Shown here in pieces: positions 1,630 to 52,892 of a stretch of DNA of 64,000 nucleotides. The number at the start of each line of letters is the position of its first letter. The stretch's first letter is position 1. Position numbers and translations under genes: made by a program. The notes below the pieces were generated by a model. That model had not been told where the DNA came from. It was given only the letters and a program-made list of their open reading frames with translations, and ran no database searches. Origin of the DNA: Actinomycetes bacterium (GTDB taxonomy: Bacteria; Actinomycetota; Thermoleophilia; BMS3ABIN01). The DNA lies in contig JAJYXB010000008.1 of the NCBI GenBank assembly GCA_021791195.1, positions 136,921 to 200,920 on the forward strand, given 5' to 3'.

Positions 1630-2549
1630 TGTCCATTCTGGTAGTCGGTTCCATCGCCCTCGACACCGTCGAGACCCCTTTCGGCCAGGCCGAGGAAGCG
1701 CTCGGCGGCGCCGCGGTGTATTTTTCCTATGCCGCCAGCTTCTTCAACCAGGTGCGGCTGGTGGGCGTCATCGGCGAGGATTTCCCCGAGGAGCACCTGC
1801 GGCTGCTGGAGAACCGCAACATCGATCTGGCCGGCCTGGAGCGCGGCCAGGGTCCCACCTTCCGCTGGAAGGGACGCTACGACTTCGACCTTAACGAGGC
1901 CCACACGCTCGACACGCAGCTGAACGTGTTCGAGACTTTCGCGCCGAAGATCCCCGACGGCTTCAAGGACAGCGAGTTCGTCTTTCTGGCCAACATCCAG
2001 CCGGGGCTGCAGCTGCAGGTCGCCCGGCAGGTGGAGTCACCGCGCATCATCGCCTGCGATACGATGAACTTCTGGATCGAAGGCGCTTACGACCAGCTGC
2101 GGGAGACGCTGAAGTCTGTTGACATTTTGGTGATAAATGATGCAGAGGCGCGCGAGCTGGCGCGCGAACCCAGTCTGGTGAAGGCGGCGCGGCAGATCCT
2201 CGAGTGGGGTCCGCAGACGCTGGTAGTCAAGCGGGGGGAATACGGCGTGCTGATGTTCAACGGCCGTTCCGTCTTCTCGGCGCCGGCCTATCCGCTGGAG
2301 AACGTCTACGATCCCACGGGCGCCGGCGACACCTTTGCCGGCGGCTTCATGGGTTACCTCTCCACGGTGGCGGATATCAACGAGGCCTCCATCCGCCAGG
2401 CGATCGTCTTCGGCTCCACGCTGGCCAGCTTCAACGTGGAGGATTTCAGCCTGAACCGGATGAAGACGCTCCGGATGCAGGATATCCTCGACCGCTTCGC
2501 CGAGTTCAAACTGCTGTCGCATTTTGAAGAAGTGCATGCTGTGGAGTAG
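1629..2549 (+). CDS. PfkB/ribokinase-family carbohydrate kinase
   Basis: A 306-residue kinase of the ribokinase superfamily, which phosphorylates a sugar or nucleoside hydroxyl with ATP in the cytoplasm. The N-terminus (ILVVGSIALDTVETPFG) is the usual first strand. The GGAAVYFSYAASFF segment matches the substrate-binding N-terminal signature. The C-terminal PfkB signature DPTGAGDTFAGGF supplies the anion hole and catalytic Asp. The length is normal. The start is a TTG at 1629 with GGAGG six bases upstream; no better start exists. The substrate cannot be told from sequence. The downstream small membrane gene overlaps its 3' end by 26 bases. It is the first gene of the GC-rich segment after the accessory pair. 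Confidence 0.88.
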   Translation: MSILVVGSIALDTVETPFGQAEEALGGAAVYFSYAASFFNQVRLVGVIGEDFPEEHLRLLENRNIDLAGLERGQGPTFRWKGRYDFDLNEAHTLDTQLNVFETFAPKIPDGFKDSEFVFLANIQPGLQLQVARQVESPRIIACDTMNFWIEGAYDQLRETLKSVDILVINDAEARELAREPSLVKAARQILEWGPQTLVVKRGEYGVLMFNGRSVFSAPAYPLENVYDPTGAGDTFAGGFMGYLSTVADINEASIRQAIVFGSTLASFNVEDFSLNRMKTLRMQDILDRFAEFKLLSHFEEVHAVE

Positions 2550-2895
2550 CCTCAAGTTCTGGCGTTTCTCGGCGCTGGTGCTGTTCCTCGCGGTGCTGGC
2601 GCTGGCATATCCGCACCTCGGGCCGCAGACGCACTTCGTGCTTAAGTCTTCGAGCATGGAGATGCAGTCGGGCGACCGCACCGGCGCCCTGTTCAGATAT
2701 ACAGTCCAGAACACCGGCAGCCAGGGTGGCAGCGTCAACGTCAACTTTCACGCCTATCTGTACGACCGCGGCGGCGACACCGACGACGATTACGTCACCA
2801 TCGGCGTCAACTCCGGCCAGACCAAGTCCGGCGAATACTTCATGCAGCTCCGCCCCGGACAGACCGTCCACGACTGGCGCATCGAGCTGACCTGA
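2524..2895 (+). CDS. Small membrane-anchored beta-rich protein
   Basis: A 123-residue protein with one hydrophobic N-terminal segment (ALVLFLAVLALAYPHL), which would anchor it in the membrane or act as an uncleaved signal. An outward-facing beta-rich domain follows (FRYTVQNTGSQGGSVNVNF then QTKSGEYFMQLRPGQT). That pattern resembles the FxLYD/CARDB-like domains of actinobacterial extracellular proteins. It begins at a TTG at 2524 or an ATG at 2536, overlapping the end of the kinase gene. There are no catalytic residues to point to. A real gene is likely because the membrane segment and domain layout are coherent. Confidence 0.6.
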   Translation: MKKCMLWSSLKFWRFSALVLFLAVLALAYPHLGPQTHFVLKSSSMEMQSGDRTGALFRYTVQNTGSQGGSVNVNFHAYLYDRGGDTDDDYVTIGVNSGQTKSGEYFMQLRPGQTVHDWRIELT

Positions 2896-2990
2896 CCGGA
2901 GCCGGCCGGCCGTTGTGCGGATCCGGTCTGGCATGACCGGGGCCGGCCGTCCGTTGTGCGGATCCGATCTGGCATGGCCGGGGCCGGTCT
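2894..2990. repeat. 41-bp tandem repeat, 2.3 copies
   Basis: Units start at 2894, 2935 and 2976 with an exact 41-bp period and only a few substitutions; the third unit is partial. Each unit carries the core GTTGTGCGGATCC or the beginning of it. The array starts at the stop of the small membrane gene and ends about 60 bases before the ABC transporter ATPase. No function is apparent. Confidence 0.85.
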
Positions 2991-3052
2991 GACGGTTTAT
3001 TTGCGCCCGGCTTCCCGGTAGAATCTGGCAACCCTGAAGCGAGGACGCCCAA

Positions 3053-4000
3053 ATGCCGGAATCGATAGTTACCGCCGACCATCTGGTTAAACGCTACGGC
3101 GAACTTGCCGCGGTGGATGGAGTCAGCTTCTCGATCGCGGAAGGCCAGATCTTCGGTTTCCTCGGTCCCAACGGCGCGGGCAAGACAACAACGATCTCCA
3201 TCCTGTCAACCTACCTGGAGCCGACGTCCGGCGAAGCCGCGATCGATGGCATCAGTGTCATCAGGGAGCCCGCGCGCGTACGCGGGATCATCGGCCTGGT
3301 GCCGCAGGAGATCGCCCTCTATCCCACCCTGAGCGCGCTGCAGAACCTGAAGTTCTACGGCAGGATGTACGGCCTGAGCGGCGAACGCCTGGAGCGGCGC
3401 TGCCGCGATGTCCTGGAACTGGTGGAGCTGTGGGAGCGGCGCGATGACCGCGTCGAGCGCTTCTCCGGCGGCATGAAGCGGCGCATCAATCTGGGCGCCG
3501 GACTGCTGCACCACCCCCGCTTCCTGCTGCTGGACGAGCCCACCGTCGGCGTCGATCCGCAGTCGCGCGAGCACATCTTCGACACCATCTTCAAAATCCG
3601 CGACGCGGGCACCACGATTCTTTATACCTCCCATTACATGGAGGAAGTGGAGCTTCTGTGCGACCGCATCGCCATCATGGACCGCGGCCGCGTGATCGCC
3701 GACGGCACGCTGAAGGAGCTTTTGAAGATGCTGGGCGAGGGCGGTGTCATCGAGCTGGAGGTCTCGCCGCCGGGCTGCCCGGCGCACCTCGAAGATGAGC
3801 TCGCCCGCCAGGAGGCCGTCACCAGCGTCAGGCACGAAGGCAACCGCCTGTTCATCTCATCGGCGGACAGCGCCCGTTCGCTGGCGCCGGTGATGCAGAA
3901 GCTGGCGGGCGCCGGCTGCCAGGTGGCCAGCCTGGAGCTCTACAGCCCCACCCTGGAAAAACTGTTCATTCACCTGACCGGCAAAGAGCTGCGGGAATGA
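3053..4000 (+). CDS. ABC transporter ATP-binding protein (ABC-2 type exporter)
   Basis: A 315-residue ATPase subunit of an ABC-2 exporter. Walker A is GPNGAGKTTT at residues 38-47. The signature FSGGMKRR lies near residue 137 and Walker B (LLLDEPTVGVD) near 158, followed by the switch His in YTSHYMEEVE. The last ~90 residues form the accessory domain common in the drug/antibiotic exporter group (DrrA/CcmA-like). ATG at 3053 follows the GAGG in AAGCGAGGACG. The stop overlaps the permease start, so the two are co-translated. The substrate is unknown; drugs, lipids or polysaccharides are exported by relatives. Confidence 0.93.
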   Translation: MPESIVTADHLVKRYGELAAVDGVSFSIAEGQIFGFLGPNGAGKTTTISILSTYLEPTSGEAAIDGISVIREPARVRGIIGLVPQEIALYPTLSALQNLKFYGRMYGLSGERLERRCRDVLELVELWERRDDRVERFSGGMKRRINLGAGLLHHPRFLLLDEPTVGVDPQSREHIFDTIFKIRDAGTTILYTSHYMEEVELLCDRIAIMDRGRVIADGTLKELLKMLGEGGVIELEVSPPGCPAHLEDELARQEAVTSVRHEGNRLFISSADSARSLAPVMQKLAGAGCQVASLELYSPTLEKLFIHLTGKELRE

Positions 4001-5208
4001 TGGCATCCCTGCGCAAACTCAGGTATGTGGCCGCCAAGGATCTGCTCATCATCGCCAAGGACCGCGGCTCCTGGATGACGCTGCTGGTGACGCCGCTGGT
4101 GGTGATCGTGGTGACTTCGTTCGCGCTGGCGCCGGTGTACAGGGGCGGCAGCCTGCACGCCACCCTGCTGGTGACCAACAATGATCGCGGCAGCATCGGC
4201 CGGTCGCTGGTCGACACGCTGAAGACCAACGCCAACATGAGCGTTCAACCGGCCAGCGAAGCGGAAAGCCAGACCCTGAAGCGGGGCGGCTCGACCTACG
4301 CCCTGTCGCTGGTGATACCGGCAGACTTCTCCAGCCGGGTGATGGCCGGCCAGTCCTCGGCGCTCACGGTCTATGAAGATCCCAACTCCACCACTTCCGG
4401 CCCATTCCTCAAAGGCATGCTCAATGGCACCGTCAACCGTTTCTCCGCCGTGGAGGTGGCCACCAGGGTGGCGGTGGCCGAGGCGCAAAAGGCCAATCCG
4501 GCCGCCAGCACGGCGGCGGTAGCCGGCAACGCCTCTGCGGCGGCGACCGCGCAGATGGCCGACCAGCCGATCAAGACCGACGTCAGGACCGCCAGCGGCC
4601 TCAAGACGCTGAACACGTTCGACATCCAGACACCCGGCTTCGCGGTGATGTTCCTGCTCTTCGGCGTGATGATCGGCGCCGAAGGCCTGCTGGAAGAGCG
4701 CGACAAGGGCACGCTGGGCCGGCTGCTGGTAGCGCCGATCTCCAAGACCTCGATCATGGGCGGCAAGCTGGCGGCGCAGTTCGCCGTCAGCATCAGCCAG
4801 ATCACGCTGCTGTTCGCCATCGGCCACTTCGCCTTCGGCATGGATCTGGGCAATTCGCTGCTGGGGCTGGCGCTGATGGTGACGATGACCGCCTTTACCG
4901 CCACCACCTTCGGCCTGCTGCTGGCCGCCATCGCCCGCACCCGGCGCCAGGCCTCGGCGATCGGCATCCTCACTATCCTGCTGATGTCCGCCCTGGGCGG
5001 CAGCTGGTGGCCGCTTGACATCGTGCCTGATTTCATGCAAAAGCTGGGGCACATCACGATCAACGCCTGGGCGCTGGACGGCATTCGCGGGCTCATTCTT
5101 CACGGCGAAGGATTCTCTGATATCCTTCCTCAGGCGGGTGTATTGTTTATTTATGGATCTGTCTGCTTCATAATCGGCATCAAAATGTTCAGATTCCGGA
5201 ATGCCTGA
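3997..5208 (+). CDS. ABC-2 type transporter permease
   Basis: A 403-residue permease that pairs with the ATPase directly upstream (4-base overlap). It has one N-terminal membrane helix (near residues 25-45). A long extracytoplasmic domain of about 170 residues follows, then a C-terminal block of about five or six helices containing EGLLEERDKGTLGRLLVAPIS, the typical coupling segment of ABC-2 permeases. The GGSWWPLDIVPDFMQKLGH motif before the last helix is also typical of this family. Transport substrate cannot be inferred. The next gene starts at the base after its stop. Confidence 0.9.
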   Translation: MMASLRKLRYVAAKDLLIIAKDRGSWMTLLVTPLVVIVVTSFALAPVYRGGSLHATLLVTNNDRGSIGRSLVDTLKTNANMSVQPASEAESQTLKRGGSTYALSLVIPADFSSRVMAGQSSALTVYEDPNSTTSGPFLKGMLNGTVNRFSAVEVATRVAVAEAQKANPAASTAAVAGNASAAATAQMADQPIKTDVRTASGLKTLNTFDIQTPGFAVMFLLFGVMIGAEGLLEERDKGTLGRLLVAPISKTSIMGGKLAAQFAVSISQITLLFAIGHFAFGMDLGNSLLGLALMVTMTAFTATTFGLLLAAIARTRRQASAIGILTILLMSALGGSWWPLDIVPDFMQKLGHITINAWALDGIRGLILHGEGFSDILPQAGVLFIYGSVCFIIGIKMFRFRNA

Positions 5209-6594
5209 ATGACCCCTCGCAGAATTCGACGCAACACGTCGCGCGCGGCAGCGCGCTCCCGCGGCGGCCGGCACGTCTACCGGCGGCGGCGCCTCGGATT
5301 CGCCGCCGTGCTGGCGGCGGTGCTGCTGATACTCTTCCTCGCCGGCGTTTTCACCGGCGGAGCCACGCCTGCCAGCAGCTCCGGCCCCGAGGTGCGCGCC
5401 ATCCCCGTGAACGGCATCATCGACCCGCTGATGGCTGATTACGTCAGCCGCAGCATCGACGCCGCCCAGCGGGACCAGGTCAAGGCCGTGGTGCTGGAAC
5501 TGGACACGCCGGGAGGCCTGGACGGCCCGATGCGCGACATCATCAAGAAGATGGAGAGCTCGCCCCTGCCAGTGATCGCCTACGTGTCGCCCTCAGGGGC
5601 GCGGGCCGCCTCCGCCGGCACCTTCATCTGCATGGCCGCCGACGTCACCGCGATGGCGCCGGGCACCAACCTGGGAGCGGCGCATCCGGTCGGTATCGGC
5701 GCCGATCCCGGCACCGAGGAAGGCCGCAAGGTCATCAATGACGCCGCCGCCTACATCCGCTCGCTGGCAGACGCCAACGGCCACAACGCCGACTGGGCGG
5801 AGCTGGCCGTGCTCCAGTCGGTTTCGCTGCCTGCTGATGCCGCCCTTTCGGAGAAAGTGATCGATTTCGAGGCCGTTGACCTGACCGCGCTGCTCGGCCA
5901 GGTCAACGGCTTTAAAACCAAGGCGAAGGGTATCACCCTGGAAACCAGGGGCGCCACGGTCACAACAGCCGGCATGGACGTGAAGGAACGGCTGCTCTAC
6001 TTCCTGGATAATCCCAACGTCGCCTACCTGCTGCTCGTCTTTGGGCTGCTGGCGCTGGCTTTCGAGTTCGTGCACCCTGGCATCGGCGTGGGCGCCGCCG
6101 CGGGCATCATCGCCCTCCTGCTGGCCGGTTATTCCCTGTATCAGCTGCCGGTCAACCTTGTCGGCATCCTTCTGACCATTTTCGGAGTCGGCCTGCTGGC
6201 GGCGGAGCTGTTCGTGCCCGCGCACGGAACGCTGACCGCAGCAGGCGTCATCAGCATGATCGCCGGCTCGTTCCTGCTCTATGACAGCTCCGCGGGTTTC
6301 CTGCGCGTGTCGCTGCCGCTCAACATCGTCATGGCGGCGCTGGCGCTCGGCTTCTTCATCTTCGTGGCGCGGGCAGGCATCCGGGCTCGGCGGCTGCCGG
6401 TGAAGAACCCGCGCAGCGCCATGATTGGCGAGTCCGGCATCACGCGCACGCGGCTCGATCCGCTGGGACAGGTCTTTATCATGGGTGAGATCTGGAGCGC
6501 CGCGGCGCCCGGGGATGAACCGATCGAAAAAGGGGAAGAAGTAGAGGTCGTGGAAGTGAGCGGATTGATACTGAAGGTAAGAAGAACCGTCTGA
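5209..6594 (+). CDS. nfeD: NfeD-type membrane serine protease
   Basis: A 461-residue long-form NfeD protein. It has a basic N-terminus, a signal/anchor helix (about residues 28-48) and a ClpP-like protease domain with SPSGARAASAGTF carrying the nucleophile Ser. A block of membrane helices (about 265-395) and a C-terminal OB-fold domain ending in VSGLILKVRRTV follow. In the archaeal homologue the Ser/Lys dyad cleaves the hydrophobic C-terminus of the partner stomatin. The SPFH slipin gene follows 63 bases later, the usual pairing, so the two likely act together in membrane quality control or microdomains. The start at 5209 abuts the permease stop, so it may share that transcript. Confidence 0.9.
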   Translation: MTPRRIRRNTSRAAARSRGGRHVYRRRRLGFAAVLAAVLLILFLAGVFTGGATPASSSGPEVRAIPVNGIIDPLMADYVSRSIDAAQRDQVKAVVLELDTPGGLDGPMRDIIKKMESSPLPVIAYVSPSGARAASAGTFICMAADVTAMAPGTNLGAAHPVGIGADPGTEEGRKVINDAAAYIRSLADANGHNADWAELAVLQSVSLPADAALSEKVIDFEAVDLTALLGQVNGFKTKAKGITLETRGATVTTAGMDVKERLLYFLDNPNVAYLLLVFGLLALAFEFVHPGIGVGAAAGIIALLLAGYSLYQLPVNLVGILLTIFGVGLLAAELFVPAHGTLTAAGVISMIAGSFLLYDSSAGFLRVSLPLNIVMAALALGFFIFVARAGIRARRLPVKNPRSAMIGESGITRTRLDPLGQVFIMGEIWSAAAPGDEPIEKGEEVEVVEVSGLILKVRRTV

Positions 6595-6657
6595 CGCGCC
6601 GCTCACCCCGGTGGGCAATGGGCAGGGCGAAACGATCAATCGACCCGGGAGGCTCCA

Positions 6658-7416
6658 ATGGCTGTCGCAGGAATTCTGATCGGCATCATCGGCGTTATCG
6701 TCCTGTCGCTGCTGCTGTCCGCGATCCGCATCGCCAAGGAGTATGAACGCGGCGTTATCTTCCGGCTGGGGCGGGTGATCGGCACCAAGGGCCCCGGCCT
6801 GTTCCTGCTCATCCCGGTCGTTGACCGCATGGTAAAGATTGACCTGCGCATCGTCACCATGAGCGTGCCGCCCCAGGAGGTGATCACCCGCGACAACGTG
6901 CCGGTGCGGGTCAACGCCGTCCTCTTCTTTCGCGTGATCGACGCCAGAAACGCGGTGGTGACGGTGGAGAACTTCATTATGGCTACCTCGCAAATCGCCC
7001 AGACCACGCTCAGGAGCACGCTGGGACAGGCCGACCTGGACCACCTGCTGGCGGAGCGCGACAAGATCAACCAGCAACTGCAGCAGATCATCGACGAACA
7101 GACCGCGCCCTGGGGGATCAAGGTGACGACCGTGGAGGTCAAGGACGTGGAGATTCCGCAGACGATGCAGCGGGCGATGGCGCGGCAGGCGGAGGCCGAG
7201 CGGGAGCGCCGCGCCAAAATCATCGCGGCCGAGGGCGAGTTCCAGGCTTCGGAGAAGCTGGCCAGCGCGGCCCACATCATCTCCGCCGAGCCGATGGCGC
7301 TGCAATTGCGTTTCCTGCAGACGCTTGTTGAAGTTGCATCCGAGCATAACTCAACCACCATCTTCCCGGTGCCGATAGATCTGATCAAGCCTTTCCTGGA
7401 GAAGGCGAAATCCTGA
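6658..7416 (+). CDS. SPFH/slipin (stomatin-like) protein
   Basis: A 252-residue slipin. It has an N-terminal membrane-inserting segment (residues 1-22) followed by the SPFH/PHB domain ([19 protein letters not shown], then [13 protein letters not shown]). The alanine/glutamate-rich coiled coil ([17 protein letters not shown] and on) drives oligomerisation. Length and layout match stomatin-like proteins paired with NfeD. ATG at 6658 follows GGGAGG by about seven bases. Expected role: scaffolding of membrane microdomains and substrate or partner of the upstream NfeD protease. Confidence 0.92.
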
Positions 7417-7530
7417 CCGCCACGGCGCCGCGAAAATCCGGGACACCGTGGCGTTTCATCACTGACTGCTGGTTTCGGGACAGCGCCCGCGAGTTAGAAT
7501 CAATATTATTCATGCGACACACAGGCAGCC

Positions 7531-8307
7531 ATGGGCCAATATGACCTCCTTGATCCGGAGAACGCTCCGGGCAGATTCGAAACACTGAAGAGCCCCAGGA
7601 AGCGCGGCTCGAAGGGCGACGGCGTGCCCTGGGGCGTAAGGGATGTCTTCCTGATGATCCTGCTGGCGGTTATCGGCTTCCTGGCTGCCATGCTGGGGCT
7701 GACGGTCGCGGTCCGCCTTGTTCTTGATATCTTCCCCAATCTGAAATCACTGCCGACGCTGGTGGTCAATTCGCTCTTCCTCGTTTTCCAGGACGGCATC
7801 ATCCTCACCATCTCGCTGGTTTTTTTGCACCTGCGCGGCTACCGCTTCAACCTGGCGACGCTGGGATTCCGCCGCACCGGCCTGCTGATGGCGATCCTGC
7901 TGGTGTTCACGGTGCTGGCGCTGTCAGAGGTCGGCAGCGCCATCTACCAGAGCTTCGTGACCCCGCAGCCGCAGCCGGTGCTGAAGGAGATCCAGCCCGG
8001 CCTGCCGGCGCTGGCGCTGGCCATCATCCAGATCGCCATCATCGCCCCGATCGCCGAGGAGATCCTGTTCCGCGGCATCATCCACCAGGGCCTCGAACAC
8101 CAGCTGGGCTTCATCCCGGCGGGAATCATCTCCGCGGCCATTTTCGCCGCGGCGCATCTGCAGCCGGACATCTTCGTGCCCATATTCATCCTCGGCTTCG
8201 GCTTCGCTTTCCTGATGCACTACACGCGCTCGCTCTGGCCGTCGATCGCCGGACATATGCTGTTTAACCTGTTGTCCGTGATCGCCGTCTACAGCAGCCT
8301 TCGCTGA
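7531..8307 (+). CDS. CPBP-family intramembrane metalloprotease
   Basis: A 258-residue integral membrane protein with about seven hydrophobic segments. The CPBP (CAAX/Abi) motifs are present: AEEILFRGI (EExxxR) near residue 172, an AAHLQPD His motif about 30 residues later, and GHMLFN near the C-terminus. These supply the metal ligands and general base in the Rce1-type fold. Prokaryotic members have been linked to bacteriocin self-immunity or processing of membrane peptides; no partner peptide is seen here. The ribosome site is weak (AGGCAGCC before ATG at 7531). The gene stands alone, 114 bases after the slipin gene. Confidence 0.88.
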   Translation: MGQYDLLDPENAPGRFETLKSPRKRGSKGDGVPWGVRDVFLMILLAVIGFLAAMLGLTVAVRLVLDIFPNLKSLPTLVVNSLFLVFQDGIILTISLVFLHLRGYRFNLATLGFRRTGLLMAILLVFTVLALSEVGSAIYQSFVTPQPQPVLKEIQPGLPALALAIIQIAIIAPIAEEILFRGIIHQGLEHQLGFIPAGIISAAIFAAAHLQPDIFVPIFILGFGFAFLMHYTRSLWPSIAGHMLFNLLSVIAVYSSLR

Positions 8308-8648
8308 TGGCGGCGGCCGGCGGGCGGCCGCATCGCGTTCGGACAGCTACTCCGGGAAATACCCCCCCTGGTTTGTAATTACAGCGAGTGTTTAATATAG
8401 TAACGCATCGGGAGCGGCAAGCCGCCGGCTTTCGGCACTGTGCGAACCTCTCTTCATTCGAACCGGTTCACCGGTAGTTTCATCTGGACATCCAACCGGA
8501 TAGACTATGCGATTGATACCATTATTGGGCTCAGACGTGCGGGGGTTGAAAGAATTCCAGGTTTCGCTGACAGTGAGCTCCGGGCGGATGACTGCGCGCC
8601 ATATCCTGGCCGGTCGCCGCTCGCCATCCAGCCTGCGGGGAGTCGCCT
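8308..8648. other. Intergenic region, probable complex I operon leader
   Basis: About 340 bases between the CPBP protease and nuoA. A GC-rich stretch with partial dyad symmetry (GGCGGCC/GGCCGC, 8310-8335) directly after the protease stop could end its transcript. Further on an AT-rich patch (near 8380-8402) is the likeliest promoter area, but I could not find a pair of good -35 and -10 boxes. An open frame at 8440-8652 has no protein-like character. Confidence 0.4.
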
Positions 8649-9020
8649 GTGACTCCTGATTACGCGCACAGTTACATCTTCATCGCCGCCCTCGGCGTTG
8701 CCGCCTTTGTCTTCGTTTTCGGGGTGGTGTACCTCTCCCGCCTGATCCAGCGGCGCCATCCATACCCGGAAAAGCTATCCCCCTACGAATGCGGCATCGA
8801 GCCGGCGGTGGGCGACAGCTGGCACCCGTTCGCCGTGCGCTACTACGTCTTCGCGCTGCTCTTCGTCATCTTCGACGTGGAAGCGGTGTTCATATTCCCC
8901 TGGGCCCTTGTCTTCCGCAGCCTGGGCCGCAGCGGCTTTGCCGAGATGATGATCTTTATCGGCGTCCTGTTCGTGGGCCTGGTCTACGCCTGGGCCAAGG
9001 GAGCGCTGGAATGGGACTGA
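8649..9020 (+). CDS. nuoA: NADH-quinone oxidoreductase subunit A
   Basis: A 123-residue membrane subunit of complex I with three helices. The conserved loop ([27 protein letters not shown]) and [12 protein letters not shown] are typical of NuoA, which contributes to the quinone cavity together with NuoH and NuoD. The start is a GTG at 8649 with GGGGAG upstream. It opens the 12-gene operon that runs to nuoN at 22393 without a gap larger than about 50 bases, so the genes are probably one transcript. Confidence 0.95.
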
Positions 9021-9021
9021 C

Positions 9022-9561
9022 ATGTCGGTAATCGAGAAATTCGAGCATCCGAATATCCTCACGTCCACAACCGACCGCCTCTTCAACTGGGCGCGGTTGA
9101 ACTCGCTGTGGCCGTTTACCTACGGCCTGGCCTGCTGCGCCATCGAGATGATCTCCACCGCGATGCCGCGCCATGACATGGCCCGTTTCGGAATGGAGGC
9201 GCTGCGCGCCACACCCAGGCAGGCCGACGTGATGATCGTTTCCGGTACCATCACCGACAAGATGGCGCCGGTCCTGATCCACCTTTACCACCAGATGAGC
9301 GAGCCGCGCTGGGTGGTCGCCATGGGCGCCTGCGCCTCGGGCGGCGGCATGTTCTGGGATTCCTACAATGTCGTCCAGGGCGCCGACCTGCTGGTGCCGG
9401 TAGACATCTACATCCCCGGCTGCCCGCCGCGGCCAGAGGCGCTCCTTTACGGGATGATGCAGCTGCAGGCGAAGGTCAGGCAGCAATCCCAGGTGGGGCT
9501 GGCCCGGCGGCTGGCTGCCGCGACGATGGTCCAATATGACGCCGCCGGGAGCCAGCGATGA
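9022..9561 (+). CDS. nuoB: NADH-quinone oxidoreductase subunit B
   Basis: A 179-residue subunit that carries the terminal [4Fe-4S] cluster N2, the electron donor to quinone. The ligand motifs are present: the Cys pair in [10 protein letters not shown] (residues 38-39), MGACASGGG and [13 protein letters not shown]. It begins one base after the nuoA stop and overlaps nuoC by four bases. The distal part is of normal length, unlike the second copy at 60811, which has a long basic tail. Confidence 0.95.
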
Positions 9562-10103
9562 GCGCCGCGTCAAAGCTGACCGGGGAGGCAGCCCTTAAGC
9601 AGGCCGAAGCGCTGCTGAGCAGCGCCGGAGCCCGGGCGCGCCTGGCGCGGGGCCGGATCGTGGTGACGCTGGAGCCGGCGGACCTGGTCGAGACGGCGGC
9701 GCGGCTGCGCGACGACGAAAAGCTTTCCTTCACATATCTGAGTTTTGTCAGCGGCGTCGACTATCCTGACCGGATGGAAGCCGTGTACATCCTGCGTTCG
9801 CTTGAGCATCAGCAGCTGCTCGAGCTGCGTGTGCGGCTTGACCGGGACCGGCCGTCGCTCCCCACCGTTTCAGGCATCTGGAGCACGGCGGCATGGCACG
9901 AGCGCGAAGCTTACGACCTGCTGGGAATCGTCTTTGAAGGCCATCCGGACCTGCGGCGGATCCTCACCCGCGGCGAGGATGGCGTCTTTCCGCTGCGCAA
10001 GGACGCGCGGCCCCACCGGGTTCAGCGCGACGAATGGAGTTTTGCCGGCATCGGCGCCGCCAAGCGGCTGCCCGGTGAAGAAGACCGTTCGGAACGGAGC
10101 TGA
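9558..10103 (+). CDS. nuoC: NADH-quinone oxidoreductase subunit C
   Basis: A 181-residue peripheral-arm subunit. The family motif is visible as [20 protein letters not shown] then [18 protein letters not shown]. It bridges NuoD and NuoI in the assembled complex. The ATG at 9558 overlaps the nuoB stop. NuoC and NuoD are separate genes here, whereas the second complex I cluster (61543) has them fused, so the two clusters are of different origin rather than a recent duplication. Confidence 0.94.
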
Positions 10104-10106
10104 AAC

Positions 10107-11279
10107 GTGGCCGAATCACGCGACATACTGATGCCGCCTGCCATTGGCCGGAGCCCTGACCCGTATGCCGACGAGCACCGCGACTTCCACCTGGAAGAGA
10201 TGGTGCTCAACATGGGCCCGCAGCACCCCTCCACTCATGGCGTTCTCCGGCTGGTGCTGCACCTGGACGGCGAACTGATCGTCAGCGTCGACCCGCAGCT
10301 CGGCTACCTGCACCGCGGCTTCGAGAAGCTGGCGGAAAACCGCACCTACCTGCAGTTCTTCTCCATGCTGGCGCGGCTTGATTACCTCGCGGGCTTCTTC
10401 ATGGAATGGGCCTATGTGCGCGCCATCGAGGACCTGATGCAGATAGAGCCTCCGCCGCGGGCCGAGTACCTGCGCGTCATCTGCGGCGAGCTCAACCGCA
10501 TCATCAGCCATCACATGGCAATCGGCGATTATCTGCTGAACCTTGGCGCCGTCACGCCTGTGCTGTGGGCTTTCCGCGACCGCGAGGACGTCCTCGACCT
10601 GCTGGAGATGCTCACCGGCCAGCGGATGATGTACAACTTCGCTCGTGTCGGCGGCGTGCGTTACGACCTGCCCGACGGCTTCGCGGAGCAGTGCCGCCGC
10701 TTCCTGAAAGGCTTTCCCGCCAAGATCGACGAGTACGAGCAGCTGATTTCCGGCAACGAGATATTCCTGGCCAGGTCGCTGGGAATGGGCGTAATCACGC
10801 CCGGGCAGGCGGCCGATTTCGGCCTCTCGGGGCCGAACCTGCGCGCCACCGGCGTGGCGATGGATCTCAGGCGGCATGCCCCTTATTCGGTTTACCCCAA
10901 GCTTGATTTTGACATCCCGGTTGGTAAGAACGGTGACAGCTTCGACCGCTACAAGTGCCGCATCGAGGAGCTGCGCCAGTCAGTGCGCATCATCGAACAG
11001 GCGCTGGACGCCATGCCCGGCGGACCGGTCAACATGAAGGTGCCGCCGATGCTCCGGCCACCGGCGGGCGAGGCCTTTTGCGCCGTGGAGACCGGACGCG
11101 GCGAGTGGTCCAACTACCTGGTCTCCGATGGCTCCCTCAGGCCCCACCGCCTGAAGCTGCGCGATTCCTGCTTTGTGGCAATATCAACTCTGCCCAAAAT
11201 CCTGCCCGGCTTCAAGATCGCCGACGTGGTCGGCATCACCGGCAGCCTCGACCTGATCATGGGGGCGGTCGACCGGTGA
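10107..11279 (+). CDS. nuoD: NADH-quinone oxidoreductase subunit D
   Basis: A 390-residue subunit related to the large subunit of [NiFe] hydrogenases, forming the quinone head-group site. MGPQHPSTHGVLRLVLHLDG near residue 36 holds the conserved His and Thr-His-Gly of the quinone site. The C-terminus ends with the usual DLIMGAVDR. The nickel-binding Cys pairs of hydrogenases are absent, as expected. It starts at a GTG at 10107, three bases after nuoC, and overlaps the GTG of nuoH. Confidence 0.95.
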   Translation: MAESRDILMPPAIGRSPDPYADEHRDFHLEEMVLNMGPQHPSTHGVLRLVLHLDGELIVSVDPQLGYLHRGFEKLAENRTYLQFFSMLARLDYLAGFFMEWAYVRAIEDLMQIEPPPRAEYLRVICGELNRIISHHMAIGDYLLNLGAVTPVLWAFRDREDVLDLLEMLTGQRMMYNFARVGGVRYDLPDGFAEQCRRFLKGFPAKIDEYEQLISGNEIFLARSLGMGVITPGQAADFGLSGPNLRATGVAMDLRRHAPYSVYPKLDFDIPVGKNGDSFDRYKCRIEELRQSVRIIEQALDAMPGGPVNMKVPPMLRPPAGEAFCAVETGRGEWSNYLVSDGSLRPHRLKLRDSCFVAISTLPKILPGFKIADVVGITGSLDLIMGAVDR

Positions 11280-47013: not shown

Positions 47014-48228
47014 TCAGCGCCGCGTCAACAGGTACTCCTGCGCCGACAGCGCCGCCTTGGCGCCCTCGCCCGCGGCGACGACGATCTGCTTGTCGCGCAC
47101 CTGGGTGACGTCACCGGCGGCAAAGACGCCGGGGACGCCGGTCCGGCATTCACAGTCGACCTCGATCTCGCCGTGGCGGTTGAGCCGCACCAGGTCGACG
47201 GCGAAACCGGAGTTCGGCTGCAGGCCGATCTCGATGAAAACAGCCCGGACCGGTATCTGCACTTGCTTGCCGCCGCCATCGGGCGCGATTGCAGCCGCTG
47301 TGACCTGCTTGCCGTCCCCGTCGATCGCCACCACGCGCCAGCCCAGGTGCATCCGGATGCGCGGCTCCGCCTGCGCCTTCCCCAGCAGTAGCTCATCGGC
47401 AGTAAATGGGGCGGGCGCGACCAGATGGACCTCCGAGCAGAGCGCGGCCAGCTCCAGCGCCGCCTGCATGCCGGAATTGCCGCCGCCGGCGACCATCACC
47501 GGCTCGCCGGCGTAAAGCGGCGCATCGCAGGTGGCGCAATAGCTTACGCCGCGGCCGGCATATTCCTGCTCGCCGGAAGCGTTCAGCAGCCGCGACCGCT
47601 TCCCGGTGGCGATGATCGCCGTCCGTCCGGTGAAGCGCCTGCCGGACTGGGTGGTCGCCTGCTTCATCCCTCCGGCTATCTCGAGCTTGACGACCTCCTC
47701 ACCCTCCACCAGCGCCACGCCGCCGTAGCGGCGCACCTGGTCCTCGAACCGGGTCATCAGCTCCGGACCAGTGACGAACTGGAACCCCATGTAGTTCTCG
47801 ATGCCGGCGGTAAGCGCCGGCTGGCCACCCAGCTGGTCAGCCACCAGCACAGCGCTCAGGCCTTTGCGGGCGATGTAGACCGCGGCGGTCATCGCCGCCG
47901 GACCGCCGCCGATGATGATCACGTCCCGGACCTCTTCGGTCACGGGCGGCCGGGCGGGCGCGCGTCCCAGCTTGCGGTCGAAACCCCCCCTGGCGTCAAG
48001 CACAAGGAAATCCTCGTAGCCGCCGATGTATTCGTCGCCGATGAATATCTGCGGCACGACGTTCTTGCCGGTCAGCCGGCGCATCTCTTCCAGCGCCATC
48101 AGGTTGCCGGCAATGTCAACCTCGTTGAATTCTACACCCCGCTCACGGAAGAGCGCCTTCAGCCTGCGGCAGAAAGGTCAACCAGGCGTGGTGTAAATCG
48201 TGACTTTTTTGTCCTGTTTTTCGTTCAT
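47014..48228 (-). CDS. Glutaredoxin-thioredoxin reductase fusion, probable selenoprotein
   Basis: Read through one in-frame TGA at 48180-48178, this is a 404-residue fusion. Residues 1-80 form a glutaredoxin domain (KVTIYTTPG, then Sec17-PFC, and VPQIFIGDEYIGGYEDF). Residues ~100-404 form an FAD/NAD(P)H thioredoxin reductase: VIIIGGGPAAMTAAVYIARKG, redox pair CATC in SYCATCDAPLYAG, MVAGGGNSGMQAALEL and GVFAAGDVTQV. The TGA falls exactly at the first Cys of the CPFC active site, with no frameshift around it, so selenocysteine is the best reading. The start is ATG at 48228 with AGAAGGCGG upstream. Stopping at TGA and restarting at 48099 would lose the active site. Confidence 0.88.
48148..48177 (-). 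promoter_or_regulatory. Candidate bacterial SECIS hairpin
   Basis: Downstream of the UGA on the minus strand, 17 bases precede a hairpin GAAG-GCGCT-CTTC (48160-48148), which can extend with an outer GCT/AGC pair. The loop is 5 bases and starts with G. Distance to UGA, stem size and loop G agree with the known bacterial SECIS rules. I folded it by eye only. Confidence 0.45.
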
Positions 48229-49568: not shown

Positions 49569-50465
49569 TTGGCATTTCATAGCGTCGTCTGCATAAAACA
49601 GGTGCCCGACACCACTCAGGTGAGGATCGATCCTGAGACTGGCAGCCTTGTCCGCAAGGGGATCCCCTCGGTGATAAATCCCTTCGACCTGTTCGCGGTC
49701 GAGGCGGCGTTGCGCCTGCGTGACGAGCACGGCGGCACGGTAACCGCGCTTTGCATGGGACCGCCCCAGGCGGAAGAGGCGCTGCGAAAAGTGCTCGGCT
49801 ACGGCGTGGACCGGGCGGTGCTGGTTACCGATCGCGCCTTTGCCGGCGCGGACACGCTGGCGACGACCTATACGCTGGCGGCTGCGATCAGGAAGATCGC
49901 CGGCGCCCGGAACGACCAGAAAGCGGCGGGAAACGAGGGCGGTGAGGCCGGACCGCGCGACGCCGACGGCGAGCCGGTGGACCTCGTTTTCTGCGGCAAG
50001 CAGTCGATCGACGGCGATACCGGCCAGGTCGGCCCCGGACTGGCCCGGCGGCTGGGATTCAGCCAGTTGACATACGTTTGTTCCCTGCTGCAGATCGATC
50101 CGGAAAAGCGGAAACTGCGCGCCTGGCGCCAGCGGGAGGACGGCCGCGAGCTGCTGGAGGCCGATTTGCCGGTGGCGGTGACGATCACCGAAGCCTGCAA
50201 CCGCATCCGCTACGCGTCACTGCCGGACCTGCTGGCCGCCGCTGACAAAAAGATCGATACGTGGCGCGCTGACGATCTGGACGCCGAGCGCGGGCGCCTG
50301 GGCCTGAAGGGCTCCCCCACCCGGGTCAACCGTATCTTCGCGCCGCCCGTGCGCCAGCGCGGCGAGACCGTCGGCGAGCCGGGGATGGAGCCGGCCGCGG
50401 TGGCGGCGCTGCTGTTCGACCGGTTATCCGAACGCGGCATGAAGCCGGGAGTTGCGCGTGCCTGA
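49569..50465 (+). CDS. fixA: Electron transfer flavoprotein beta subunit (FixA)
   Basis: A 298-residue EtfB. VCIKQVPDTTQVRIDPETG, VINPFDLFAVEAALRL, LVFCGKQSIDGDTGQVGPGLA and AVTITEACNRIRYASLP are the family hallmarks, including residues of the AMP/FAD site. The start is TTG at 49569. Its 3' end overlaps the alpha-subunit gene. With fixB, fixC and fixX it forms a quinone-linked ETF complex, some of which bifurcate electrons from NADH to ferredoxin and quinone. Confidence 0.93.
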   Translation: MAFHSVVCIKQVPDTTQVRIDPETGSLVRKGIPSVINPFDLFAVEAALRLRDEHGGTVTALCMGPPQAEEALRKVLGYGVDRAVLVTDRAFAGADTLATTYTLAAAIRKIAGARNDQKAAGNEGGEAGPRDADGEPVDLVFCGKQSIDGDTGQVGPGLARRLGFSQLTYVCSLLQIDPEKRKLRAWRQREDGRELLEADLPVAVTITEACNRIRYASLPDLLAAADKKIDTWRADDLDAERGRLGLKGSPTRVNRIFAPPVRQRGETVGEPGMEPAAVAALLFDRLSERGMKPGVARA

Positions 50466-51588
50466 GGACAGGCCGAAAATCAGCAAGAACTCACCCGATG
50501 ATGCCGCACGGGCTGGAAAGGATGCCGCGCAGGACAGCAGTACCGCAGGCGGCGAGGTCTGGGTTGTCGTGGAGCAGGTGGCCGGAGAGGCCGCCCCGGT
50601 TTCGTGGGAACTGATGGGAGAAGCGCGCGCGCTCGCGGAAGCGCTCGGCGTGCGCGCGGCCGCGGTGATCCTCGGCGCCGGCGCGCCGGAACTGGCGCGG
50701 CAGGCATTCAGCTACGGCGCCGCTGCGGCTTATACCGGCAGCGACCCGGCGCTGGAGCCATTCATCACCGACCCGCACTGCCAGGCGCTGGTGGATCTGG
50801 CGCGGGCGCACCAGCCACAGATCATCCTGCTGGGCGCGACCACCCGCGGCCGCGACCTGGCCTCGGCGGCCGCCACCGAGCTCGAGACCGGACTGACAGC
50901 CGATTGCACCCATCTGGAGATCGATGAGGCCAAGGGACTGCTCAAGCAGACGCGCCCGGCTTTCGGCGGCAATGTCATGGCAACCATCATCACACCCAAT
51001 CACCGGCCGCAGATAGCGACCGTGCGGCCGGGAGTTTTTCCCCTGCCGGAGGCCGCGGCTGAAGCCGGCGGCGAGATTATCGAATCGCGGCCCGCGATCA
51101 CGGCCGCTGCGGCAGCCGTCAGGCAGCTGCAGTTCCTGCCCAATCCCGGGGAGGAATCACTCATGGGGGCGCACGTGATCGTCGCCGGCGGGCGCGGCAT
51201 GCGCAGCGCGCATAATTTTGCCTTGCTGGAGAAGCTGGCCACAGAGCTCGGCGGCACGGTGGCCGCCTCGCGCGCGGCGGTGGACGCGGGCTGGATCTCG
51301 CAGCGGCGCCAGGTCGGCCAGACCGGCCAGACCGTGCGGCCGCTGCTTTATATCGCCGTGGGCATCTCCGGCGCCGTCCAGCATCTGGCCGGGATCCAGG
51401 AATCCGACGTCATCGTGGCGATCAACAGCGATCCGGACGCGCCCATCTTCGACGTCGCCGATTACGGCATCGTCGGCGACCTCTTCGAGATCGTGCCGGC
51501 CCTGATCGAGGAAGCGCATGCACGGCTGAGCGGCGCGGCAGGATCGGATGCCGCCGGCGAACGGCAGATCGGAGTGGAATCAACATGA
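50452..51588 (+). CDS. fixB: Electron transfer flavoprotein alpha subunit (FixB)
   Basis: A 378-residue EtfA. Its N-terminal 30 residues are low-complexity and perhaps not all translated: a TTG at 50452 and a GTG at 50458 are both possible. The AMP-like first domain has [19 protein letters not shown]. The C-terminal FAD domain has [62 protein letters not shown] and [22 protein letters not shown], all intact. FAD should bind here. The fixC gene follows with a 4-base overlap. Confidence 0.93.
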
Positions 51589-52892
51589 GTGCGGCCACTT
51601 CGCGCTACGATGCCATCGTCGTCGGCGGCGGTCCGGCTGGCCTGGCGGCTGCCTACACGCTGGCAAAGGGAGGCGCCAGCGTCGTCTGCCTGGAGCGCGG
51701 CGACTGGTCCGGCAGCAAGAACATGATGGGCGGCCTCATTTATTCCCAGCCGACCGGCAGCGTCTTCCCCGAGTTCTGGCGCGAGGCGCCGCTGGAGCGC
51801 CACGTGACCCGTCGTGACATGTGGCTGGCGACCGGCGATTCCGCCATCAAGCTGTCCTTCGAGACCGCCGACTTCGCGGTCGAGCCCTACAATTCTTTCA
51901 CCGTCTACCGTTCCAGTTTCGACAAATGGCTTTCCCGCCAGACGGCTGCCGCCGGCGCCCTGATGATCAGGGAGACGCTGGTGGAGGATTTGCTGTGGGA
52001 TGGCGGCCGCATCGCCGGCGTGCGCACCGGCAGGCCGCAGGGAGACCTGGAAGCAGACGTGGTCATCATCGCCGAGGGCGTCAACACCTTCCTGACGGAG
52101 AAGGCCGGCCTGTCGCCCTGCCCGCCGCGCGCCGCCAACGTGGCGCTGGCGGTAAAAGAGGTGCTGGCGCTGCCCAAGGAGCGGATCGAGGACCGCTTCG
52201 ACCTCGACCCCGGCGCCGGCGCCGCCATCGAGATCATCGGCGAGACTACCGGCGGATTGCCGGGCACCGGCTTCATCTACACCAATCGCGACACGATCTC
52301 GGTGGGAGTAGGAGTGCTGCTGGACAGCCTGGTTGATAATCGCGCTGAGGCATATAACCTGCTGGAGCGCTTCAAGCAGCAGTCGCAGGTGCGGCGGCTC
52401 ATCCAGGGGGCGGCTCCGCGCGAGTATTCGGCCCACCTCATTCCCGAGGGCGGCTACAGTTGCATGCCCCGGCTGTACGGCGACGGCGTGCTGGTCGCCG
52501 GCGACGCCGCCGGTATGGTCAATGCCATCAACAGCGAGGGCGCCAACCTGGCGCTGCTTTCCGGCAAAATGGCCGCCGAAACCGTGCTCGCGTGCCGCGA
52601 GCGCGGCGATTTCAGCGCCGCAGCCCTGGGGCGCTACCGGCTGCTGCTGGAGGACACTGTGATCCTGAAGGATCTGCGCAAATATGACAATGCCACCAAA
52701 TTTCTGTCAACACATCATCATCTGTTCGGACTTTATCCCGAGCTGATGGCCGCGCTGGCGCGGGAGTTCCTCACCGTCGACCAGCTCAGCAAGGCCGAAA
52801 AAGAGCGGCTGCTGCTGAAACTGTTCCGTTCACAGGTGCCTACGCGCCGCCTGCTGAAGGATTTCTATCAGGCCTGGAGGGCGCTGACATGA
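51585..52892 (+). CDS. fixC: ETF-quinone oxidoreductase flavoprotein (FixC)
   Basis: A 435-residue FAD protein. VGGGPAGLAAAYTLAKGGASV is the dinucleotide fold, GDAAGMVNAINSEGANLAL the second FAD motif, and SGSKNMMGGLIYSQPTG is typical of FixC. It passes electrons from ETF to the quinone pool at the membrane surface. The short partner ferredoxin, fixX, overlaps its stop. Confidence 0.94.
   Translation: MSAATSRYDAIVVGGGPAGLAAAYTLAKGGASVVCLERGDWSGSKNMMGGLIYSQPTGSVFPEFWREAPLERHVTRRDMWLATGDSAIKLSFETADFAVEPYNSFTVYRSSFDKWLSRQTAAAGALMIRETLVEDLLWDGGRIAGVRTGRPQGDLEADVVIIAEGVNTFLTEKAGLSPCPPRAANVALAVKEVLALPKERIEDRFDLDPGAGAAIEIIGETTGGLPGTGFIYTNRDTISVGVGVLLDSLVDNRAEAYNLLERFKQQSQVRRLIQGAAPREYSAHLIPEGGYSCMPRLYGDGVLVAGDAAGMVNAINSEGANLALLSGKMAAETVLACRERGDFSAAALGRYRLLLEDTVILKDLRKYDNATKFLSTHHHLFGLYPELMAALAREFLTVDQLSKAEKERLLLKLFRSQVPTRRLLKDFYQAWRALT

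Follow-up and report, generated by a model that had tools for sequence, protein, structure and literature searches.

A probable selenocysteine glutaredoxin fused to an AhpF-type flavoprotein in a family of Thermoleophilia

A bacterium of the Thermoleophilia encodes what is very probably a selenoprotein, in which a dithiol glutaredoxin (Grx) with the active site U17-P-F-C20 is followed in the same chain by an AhpF-type FAD oxidoreductase that would supply it with electrons by the mechanism proposed below. A first-pass annotation of this DNA had suggested a glutaredoxin-reductase fusion with UGA-encoded selenocysteine (Sec) in its glutaredoxin part, and Sec decoding is now well supported by comparative sequence analysis, namely by the Sec machinery of the host, a UGA kept among relatives, related proteins with Cys at the same site, a covarying hairpin and an invariant codon in its loop. 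On balance, and less firmly, we favour the fuller reading of a self-contained, glutathione-independent system in which a Sec glutaredoxin and an NADH flavoprotein were fused from an adjacent gene pair within one actinobacterial lineage, with Sec in one family and Cys in its sisters.

The gene and its reading frame

The DNA analysed, called the window below, is a 64,000-nt stretch (positions 136,921-200,920 of the forward strand) of contig JAJYXB010000008.1 in assembly GCA_021791195.1. The host is an Actinomycetes bacterium (GTDB Bacteria; Actinomycetota; Thermoleophilia; BMS3ABIN01) whose genome comprises 2.15 Mb in 27 contigs and is 97.5% complete. The first-pass annotation had described a minus-strand frame opening at ATG 48228 with a TGA at the first CxxC position, an open continuation beyond it, and an automatic start at 48099 at which the active site would be lost; the sequence and a mechanical ORF call bear out all of this. 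The frame reads MNEKQDKKVTIYTTPG-UGA-PFCRRLKALF..., the UGA stands in the context TPG-UGA-PFC and takes the place of the leading Cys in a dithiol glutaredoxin CxxC, and no frameshift intervenes between 48228 and the terminal TGA at 47014-47016. Because ORF callers lose the active site, the enzyme is likely annotated in the family as a truncated reductase. Feature coordinates are collected in Table 1.

Table 1. Features of the fusion gene and its upstream neighbour, in window coordinates.
Feature	Position	Strand	Basis or remark
Whole gene, probable selenoprotein glutaredoxin/AhpF-type flavoprotein fusion	47014..48228	-	404 residues + stop, read-through frame
In-frame UGA read as Sec, residue 17, UPFC position 1	48178..48180	-	TGA at this codon in 15 genomes; fused class relatives have Cys
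Cys20 (TGC), second active-site residue	48169..48171	-	Sequence reading
Likely SECIS hairpin	48136..48155	-	Family consensus stem 27-33/39-45 (T of UGA = 1), RNAalifold + covariation
Loop codon CGU (Arg), GU presented in hairpin loop	48145..48147	-	CGT in 15/15 Sec genes
Internal ATG, ORF-caller start	48097..48099	-	Mechanical ORF call; active site dropped
Glutaredoxin domain, residues 9-85	47974..48204	-	Pfam match + alignment with glutaredoxin 3 (1fov), the closest solved structure
FAD/NAD(P)H domain, Pyr_redox_2, AhpF-type, residues 102-389	47062..47925	-	Pfam, NCBIfam, PDB match, tree
Flavoprotein redox motif CATC, Cys231 + Cys234	47527..47538	-	Invariant alignment columns
Upstream single-cluster ferredoxin gene, 66 residues	48371..48571	-	Neighbour kept in family; link to the system positional

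A glutaredoxin joined to an AhpF-type reductase

The read-through protein matches Pfam Glutaredoxin (PF00462) over residues 9-68 with 69.9 bits (cut-off 22.9) and Pyr_redox_2 with 149.7 bits (cut-off 26.1). Its N-terminal part aligns over 77 residues with glutaredoxin 3 (Grx3, 1fov), keeping the VPQIF and GGY stretches and setting UPFC opposite CPYC, and it combines a PF00462 score above the cut-off with the CPYC-type site of a dithiol glutaredoxin. For the flavoprotein, the best NCBIfam match is AhpF (TIGR03140; 308.6 bits, below the curated cut-off of 502.9), thioredoxin reductase (TrxR; TIGR01292) comes second at 266.6 bits, likewise below its curated cut-off of 343.45, and the top solved-structure match is AhpF 4o5q (218.6 bits). 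A tree built from 54 flavoprotein rows splits the clade of the fusion protein from eight classical TrxR rows with support of 100/100, and HRRxxxR, the NADPH (phosphate-binding) motif of thioredoxin reductase, occurs in none of the 46 rows of that clade as against all eight TrxR rows. By these tests on the predicted protein, the reductase is AhpF-type, lacks HRRxxxR and lies outside AhpF (TIGR03140) as curated. The earlier description of a glutaredoxin-thioredoxin reductase fusion was right as to a fused TrxR-type flavoprotein, but NCBIfam, PDB and HRRxxxR place the subtype as AhpF-type and not as classical thioredoxin reductase.

Alignment with an annotated AhpF of Mycetohabitans (533 aa) starts at AhpF residue 118, and U17 falls on the first Cys of the N-terminal CxxC; the fusion protein thus resembles AhpF without its first part, with a classical Sec glutaredoxin as donor domain. 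The N-terminal domain of AhpF is a double Trx-fold, and the single redox domain of the fusion protein sets it apart in this respect. Structure prediction with seven sequences was poor (pLDDT 64, pTM 0.54).

Proposed mechanism and possible roles

In the mechanism that we propose, SelB and Sec-tRNA would read the hairpin and decode the UGA as Sec, and NAD(P)H, probably NADH since the HRRxxxR phosphate-binding motif is absent, would reduce FAD. Electrons would then pass from FAD to C231/C234 and on to U17/C20, by analogy with the transfer from AhpF to its N-terminal CxxC, the order of steps being taken from what is known of AhpF and TrxR. The reactive selenol of U17 would reduce client disulfides or oxidized thiols and, being fed by the flavin, would leave the Grx domain with no need of glutathione. 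Candidate clients are MsrA, which is present in the host genome, and other thiol enzymes; in one study, a Sec glutaredoxin was reportedly adapted to reduce Sec-MsrA.

The client could also be a peroxiredoxin, in which case the Sec protein, equally real, would work as a dedicated AhpF- or Cp34/Cp9-like peroxiredoxin reductase and as a donor for peroxide scavenging, a role that we consider possible yet doubtful. The nearness of the flavoprotein to AhpF and the alignment of the Grx Sec with the N-terminal CxxC of AhpF would suit such a role, and one study is said to have found that a two-gene system of C. pasteurianum, made of a Grx and a TrxR-like protein, reduces AhpC. That pair, so far as it is described in extracts of its source (PMC3720550), supplies a precedent. 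However, no peroxiredoxin was noticed among the ORFs around the fusion gene, and among the five PF00578 places of the host genome the three that were read hold no typical AhpC, those on C24 and C14 being TlpA-like and that on C4 a Sec redoxin-SQR fusion.

The gene content of the host suggests glutathione independence, since the 97.5%-complete genome has no PF02955 glutathione synthetase match and its sole GCS2-family protein is a YbdK-type carboxylate-amine ligase, scoring above the cut-off for YbdK (TIGR02050) and above none for glutamate-cysteine ligase. The same two observations speak against a glutathione-type use, in which the protein would resemble thioredoxin-glutathione reductase and reduce GSSG or glutathionylated proteins. 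Such a use would draw on the existence of that GCS2-family protein and on the 77-residue likeness, VPQIF and GGY included, to Grx3, a GSH-using glutaredoxin; we judge it unlikely, and keep the glutathione-independent, flavin-fed glutaredoxin as the preferred reading.

Relation to known systems

AhpF (TIGR03140) resembles the fusion in placing a redox domain ahead of the FAD/NAD domain in a single chain, and differs in its extra N-terminal part (~117 residues in Mycetohabitans), which is missing from the fusion, and in having Cys where the fusion has Sec. Animal thioredoxin-glutathione reductase has its Sec C-terminally, in a reductase of another, high-Mr type, and Cp9 and Cp34 of C. pasteurianum use Cys and are not known to contain Sec. 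In the animal enzyme a Grx domain is attached to a thioredoxin reductase module, according to extracts of PMC3530482, and is monothiol, whereas the Grx of the window protein is of the dithiol type (UPFC). Cp9 (a redoxin) and Cp34 (NADH-dependent and TrxR-like), described in the extracts of PMC3720550 as a Grx-like protein and a flavoprotein encoded adjacently, are the closest functional precedent; the likeness is one of description, with two proteins there as against one chain here.

Sec glutaredoxins (Grx, PF00462, UxxC) are listed among prokaryotic selenoproteins and described as small, GSH-using oxidoreductases in the accessible portion of PMC13188914. They share domain and Sec position with the fusion protein, but the latter is joined to a flavoprotein and comes from a genome without a PF02955 match. 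A Sec homologue of the AhpF N-terminal domain (Grx-like, UxxC, TIGR02187) is recorded for Carboxydothermus and Symbiobacterium in excerpts of PMC1794560 and PMC13188914, with Sec at the corresponding CxxC as in the window protein. It is listed there as an N-terminal-domain homologue, whereas the Grx part of the window protein best matches classical Grx3 models, and TIGR02187 was not found among the 25 NCBIfam matches listed for that protein. Sec glutaredoxin and Sec AhpF-N-terminal homologues are already known, as excerpts of PMC13188914, PMC9312934 and PMC1794560 attest. A Sec glutaredoxin-reductase fusion was not found in the excerpts of PMC13188914, PMC9312934, PMC2398784 and PMC1794560 or in the other literature examined, and may be in print. 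The fusion itself points directly to where a Sec glutaredoxin draws its electrons.

Sec machinery and conservation of the UGA

The first-pass annotation had proposed a search of the genome for selA, selB, selD and tRNA-Sec, and all four are present: selA (589.5 bits), selB (360.4) and selD (361.4) score above curated cut-offs, and a tRNA-Sec with anticodon tca was found by the Rfam model and by ARAGORN, the latter used as confirmation because the Rfam model by itself hit further tRNAs as well and was positive in 14 of 14 controls. Across the family, selA was found in 19 of 19 genomes. Sec must moreover be in use in the host, because selD too has a TGA within its frame (SG-U-ACKL; L083, G000:C10:56500-60500, near 1513). 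UGA is not reassigned, since fusion genes also end in TGA in 8 of the 15 family members, the host copy included.

Among 60 relatives, the search returned 15 long matches carrying a single in-frame TGA; every one belongs to the host's own family, host genome included, and the other 14 proteins are 58-72% identical to the window protein. In all 15 genomes the TGA falls on the homologous codon, the surrounding residues being TPG-U-PFC or a variant of it (for example G-U-PHC), which argues against chance; one of these copies (L037) is cut by a contig end and was excluded from the tree. A sixteenth family genome (G011, L028) has a UPYC site with TGA and a frameshift shortly after, and no long match was found in G008, G009 and G012, three of the 19 family genomes. 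L028 (G011:C5) is the only frameshifted family copy, and could be an assembly error or a decaying gene.

A class-wide search of 399 genomes matched 28 at 1e-60, 16 of them being the family copies, and the fused copies beyond the family come from two further families of this class. The alignment of homologues that had been proposed for Cys or UGA at the site gives UGA in the 15 family genomes and a Cys codon in 9 of the 10 fused loci read outside the family (8 TGC, 1 TGT; the tenth, L114, is fused and its Grx site was missed by the search pattern), so that an in-frame UGA takes the place of the catalytic Cys of homologues. Missing Sec machinery does not explain the Cys, since selA is present in all five Cys-fusion genomes that lie within the 60-genome set (G032, G045, G050, G055 and G057).

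A conserved hairpin downstream of the UGA

With the T of UGA counted as position 1, RNAalifold on 14 distinct sequences (without L031, which is identical there to L030, and without the frameshifted L028) returned the stem 27-33/39-45 around a five-base loop, C-G-U-N-N. Paired cells make up 93.9% of this stem, with eight both-side changes at three pairs; none of 500 shuffles matched it in paired percentage or in both-side-change cells, and six slid versions of the stem were all lower in pairing, both-side changes and covariation score. The number of further pair types was not above that of the shuffles (344 of 500 as high). The strongest single sign for a putative SECIS element is the loop codon, for which all 15 Sec genes use CGT to encode an invariant Arg, against 23 of the 365 other Arg codons of the same genes (38 of 380 Arg codons overall); the Fisher value of 5e-17 for this bias is overstated, since related sequences are not independent. 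As a control, CGT occurs in none of the six Cys-fused genes having Arg at the loop position, and among 77 degenerate columns with complete conservation, the codon was invariant in just 2.

The bSECIS model, as given in excerpts of PMC13188914, calls for a loop of 3-9 nt, a stem of 4-16 bp, a spacing of 16-37 nt, a G within the first two loop positions and an energy of <= -7.5 kcal/mol, and some bacterial SECIS elements deviate from it. The family consensus fits the geometry, with a loop of 5, a stem of 7 and 30 nt from UGA to loop. In the host copy, the consensus stem contains a U.C mismatch and has an energy of -1.8 kcal/mol, with G second in the loop CGUGA, and an alternative stem CGCUC/GAGCG (26-30 with 37-41) reaches -7.0 kcal/mol with G fifth in the loop; for these reasons the host copy is not strictly within the published rules. 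The alternative stem shows a U-A to G-C double change in the host relative to its genus relatives. As a family hairpin it was rejected, with 68.6% of cells paired and no advantage over slid versions, and a 51-base single-sequence fold from the UGA did not exceed shuffles in stability (z 0.13). The first-pass annotation had placed a rule-abiding SECIS hairpin 17 bases past the UGA. That hairpin, GAAG-GCGCU-CUUC, exists (-1.2 kcal/mol) and is not conserved, with a stem 21-24/30-33 that does not covary and pairs 21-33 and 23-31 that are each disrupted in 8 of 14 sequences; the conserved hairpin sits further downstream, at 48136-48155. As a separate observation, UCCGU, as in the loop of the fusion gene, is also present 3' of the TGA in selD.

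Changes at codon positions 1/2/3 over all pairs of the 15 family genes number 250/148/501 before the UGA and 685/695/1167 from the UGA to 48099, a pattern that indicates coding constraint on either side of it. This bears on whether the UGA is a true stop, leaving a 16-residue peptide and a restart at ATG 48099 that would yield a flavoprotein of 361 residues that keeps half of the Grx domain. Such a reading matches the mechanical ORF call; we regard it as very improbable in view of the constraint on both stretches, of the persistence of UGA in 15 genomes where a single base change would give a Cys codon, and of the invariant loop codon, the covarying hairpin and the Sec machinery. A sequencing error or pseudogene at a single site, to which the one frameshifted copy among 16 in the family (L028) might be thought to point, is hardly credible, the same TGA being present in 15 separate genome records.

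Origin of the fusion

The selenoprotein fusion probably arose from an adjacent pair of Sec-Grx and flavoprotein genes that is still unfused elsewhere in the phylum. A phylum search returned 54 places, 24 of them outside the loci read. At 22 further phylum loci, a Sec glutaredoxin gene lies directly upstream of an unfused flavoprotein gene in 10 and a Cys glutaredoxin gene is upstream in 5, and no Grx was detected in the remaining 7 by a simple pattern, by which absence is unproven; two pattern-negative loci (L073 and L078) are near copies of loci with a Sec-Grx. At L042, the Cys-Grx and the flavoprotein are in different frames. In the tree, the Sec-fused rows group with L028 in one clade (99/98), and the Cys-fused rows make up a second (100/100). 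The two are sisters at 82/93, a value under the threshold at which the tool counts a branch as firm; one fusion event is therefore likely, not proven, and either Sec or Cys may have preceded in the fused lineage. The four states found in the phylum (Sec or Cys, fused or split) form a natural series on the benefit of Sec to a glutaredoxin and on the merging of donor and reductase.

Genomic neighbourhood and other observations

The ferredoxin ORF cluster upstream is present at 14 of 14 family loci examined versus none of three Cys-fused class loci. Between the ferredoxin and fusion genes, a palindrome followed by T's (48336-48311) is terminator-like by eye, and a terminator scan listed none. The downstream neighbour of the fusion gene is an adenine deaminase. 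On the plus strand of the window (49569-52892), two ORFs like electron-transfer flavoprotein subunits are followed by a FixC-like FAD enzyme (names given by eye), and many family loci retain these ORFs close to the fusion gene. When the window was scanned by codon GC content for further selenoprotein genes, only noise-like frames came up, and the known fusion gene was missed too.

Elsewhere in the host genome, a Cys glutaredoxin (CPYC) gene is followed by a TlpA-like lipoprotein gene on the minus strand of L106 (G000:C14:28500-40000, ~6700-7550), and a very long, repetitive, surface-like ORF lies between tRNA-Sec and selB-selA (L082, G000:C9:36000-52000, 2798-11041). A second Sec flavoprotein fusion of this genome is found at L107 (G000:C4:21000-25500, ~1955-3590), where a redoxin with an in-frame TGA (FWKGQ-U-QGC) is joined to a type III SQR-like enzyme; an ArsR-rhodanese gene adjoins it, and a clean GGCGGGA-GGC-UCCCGCC hairpin is visible by eye past the UGA.
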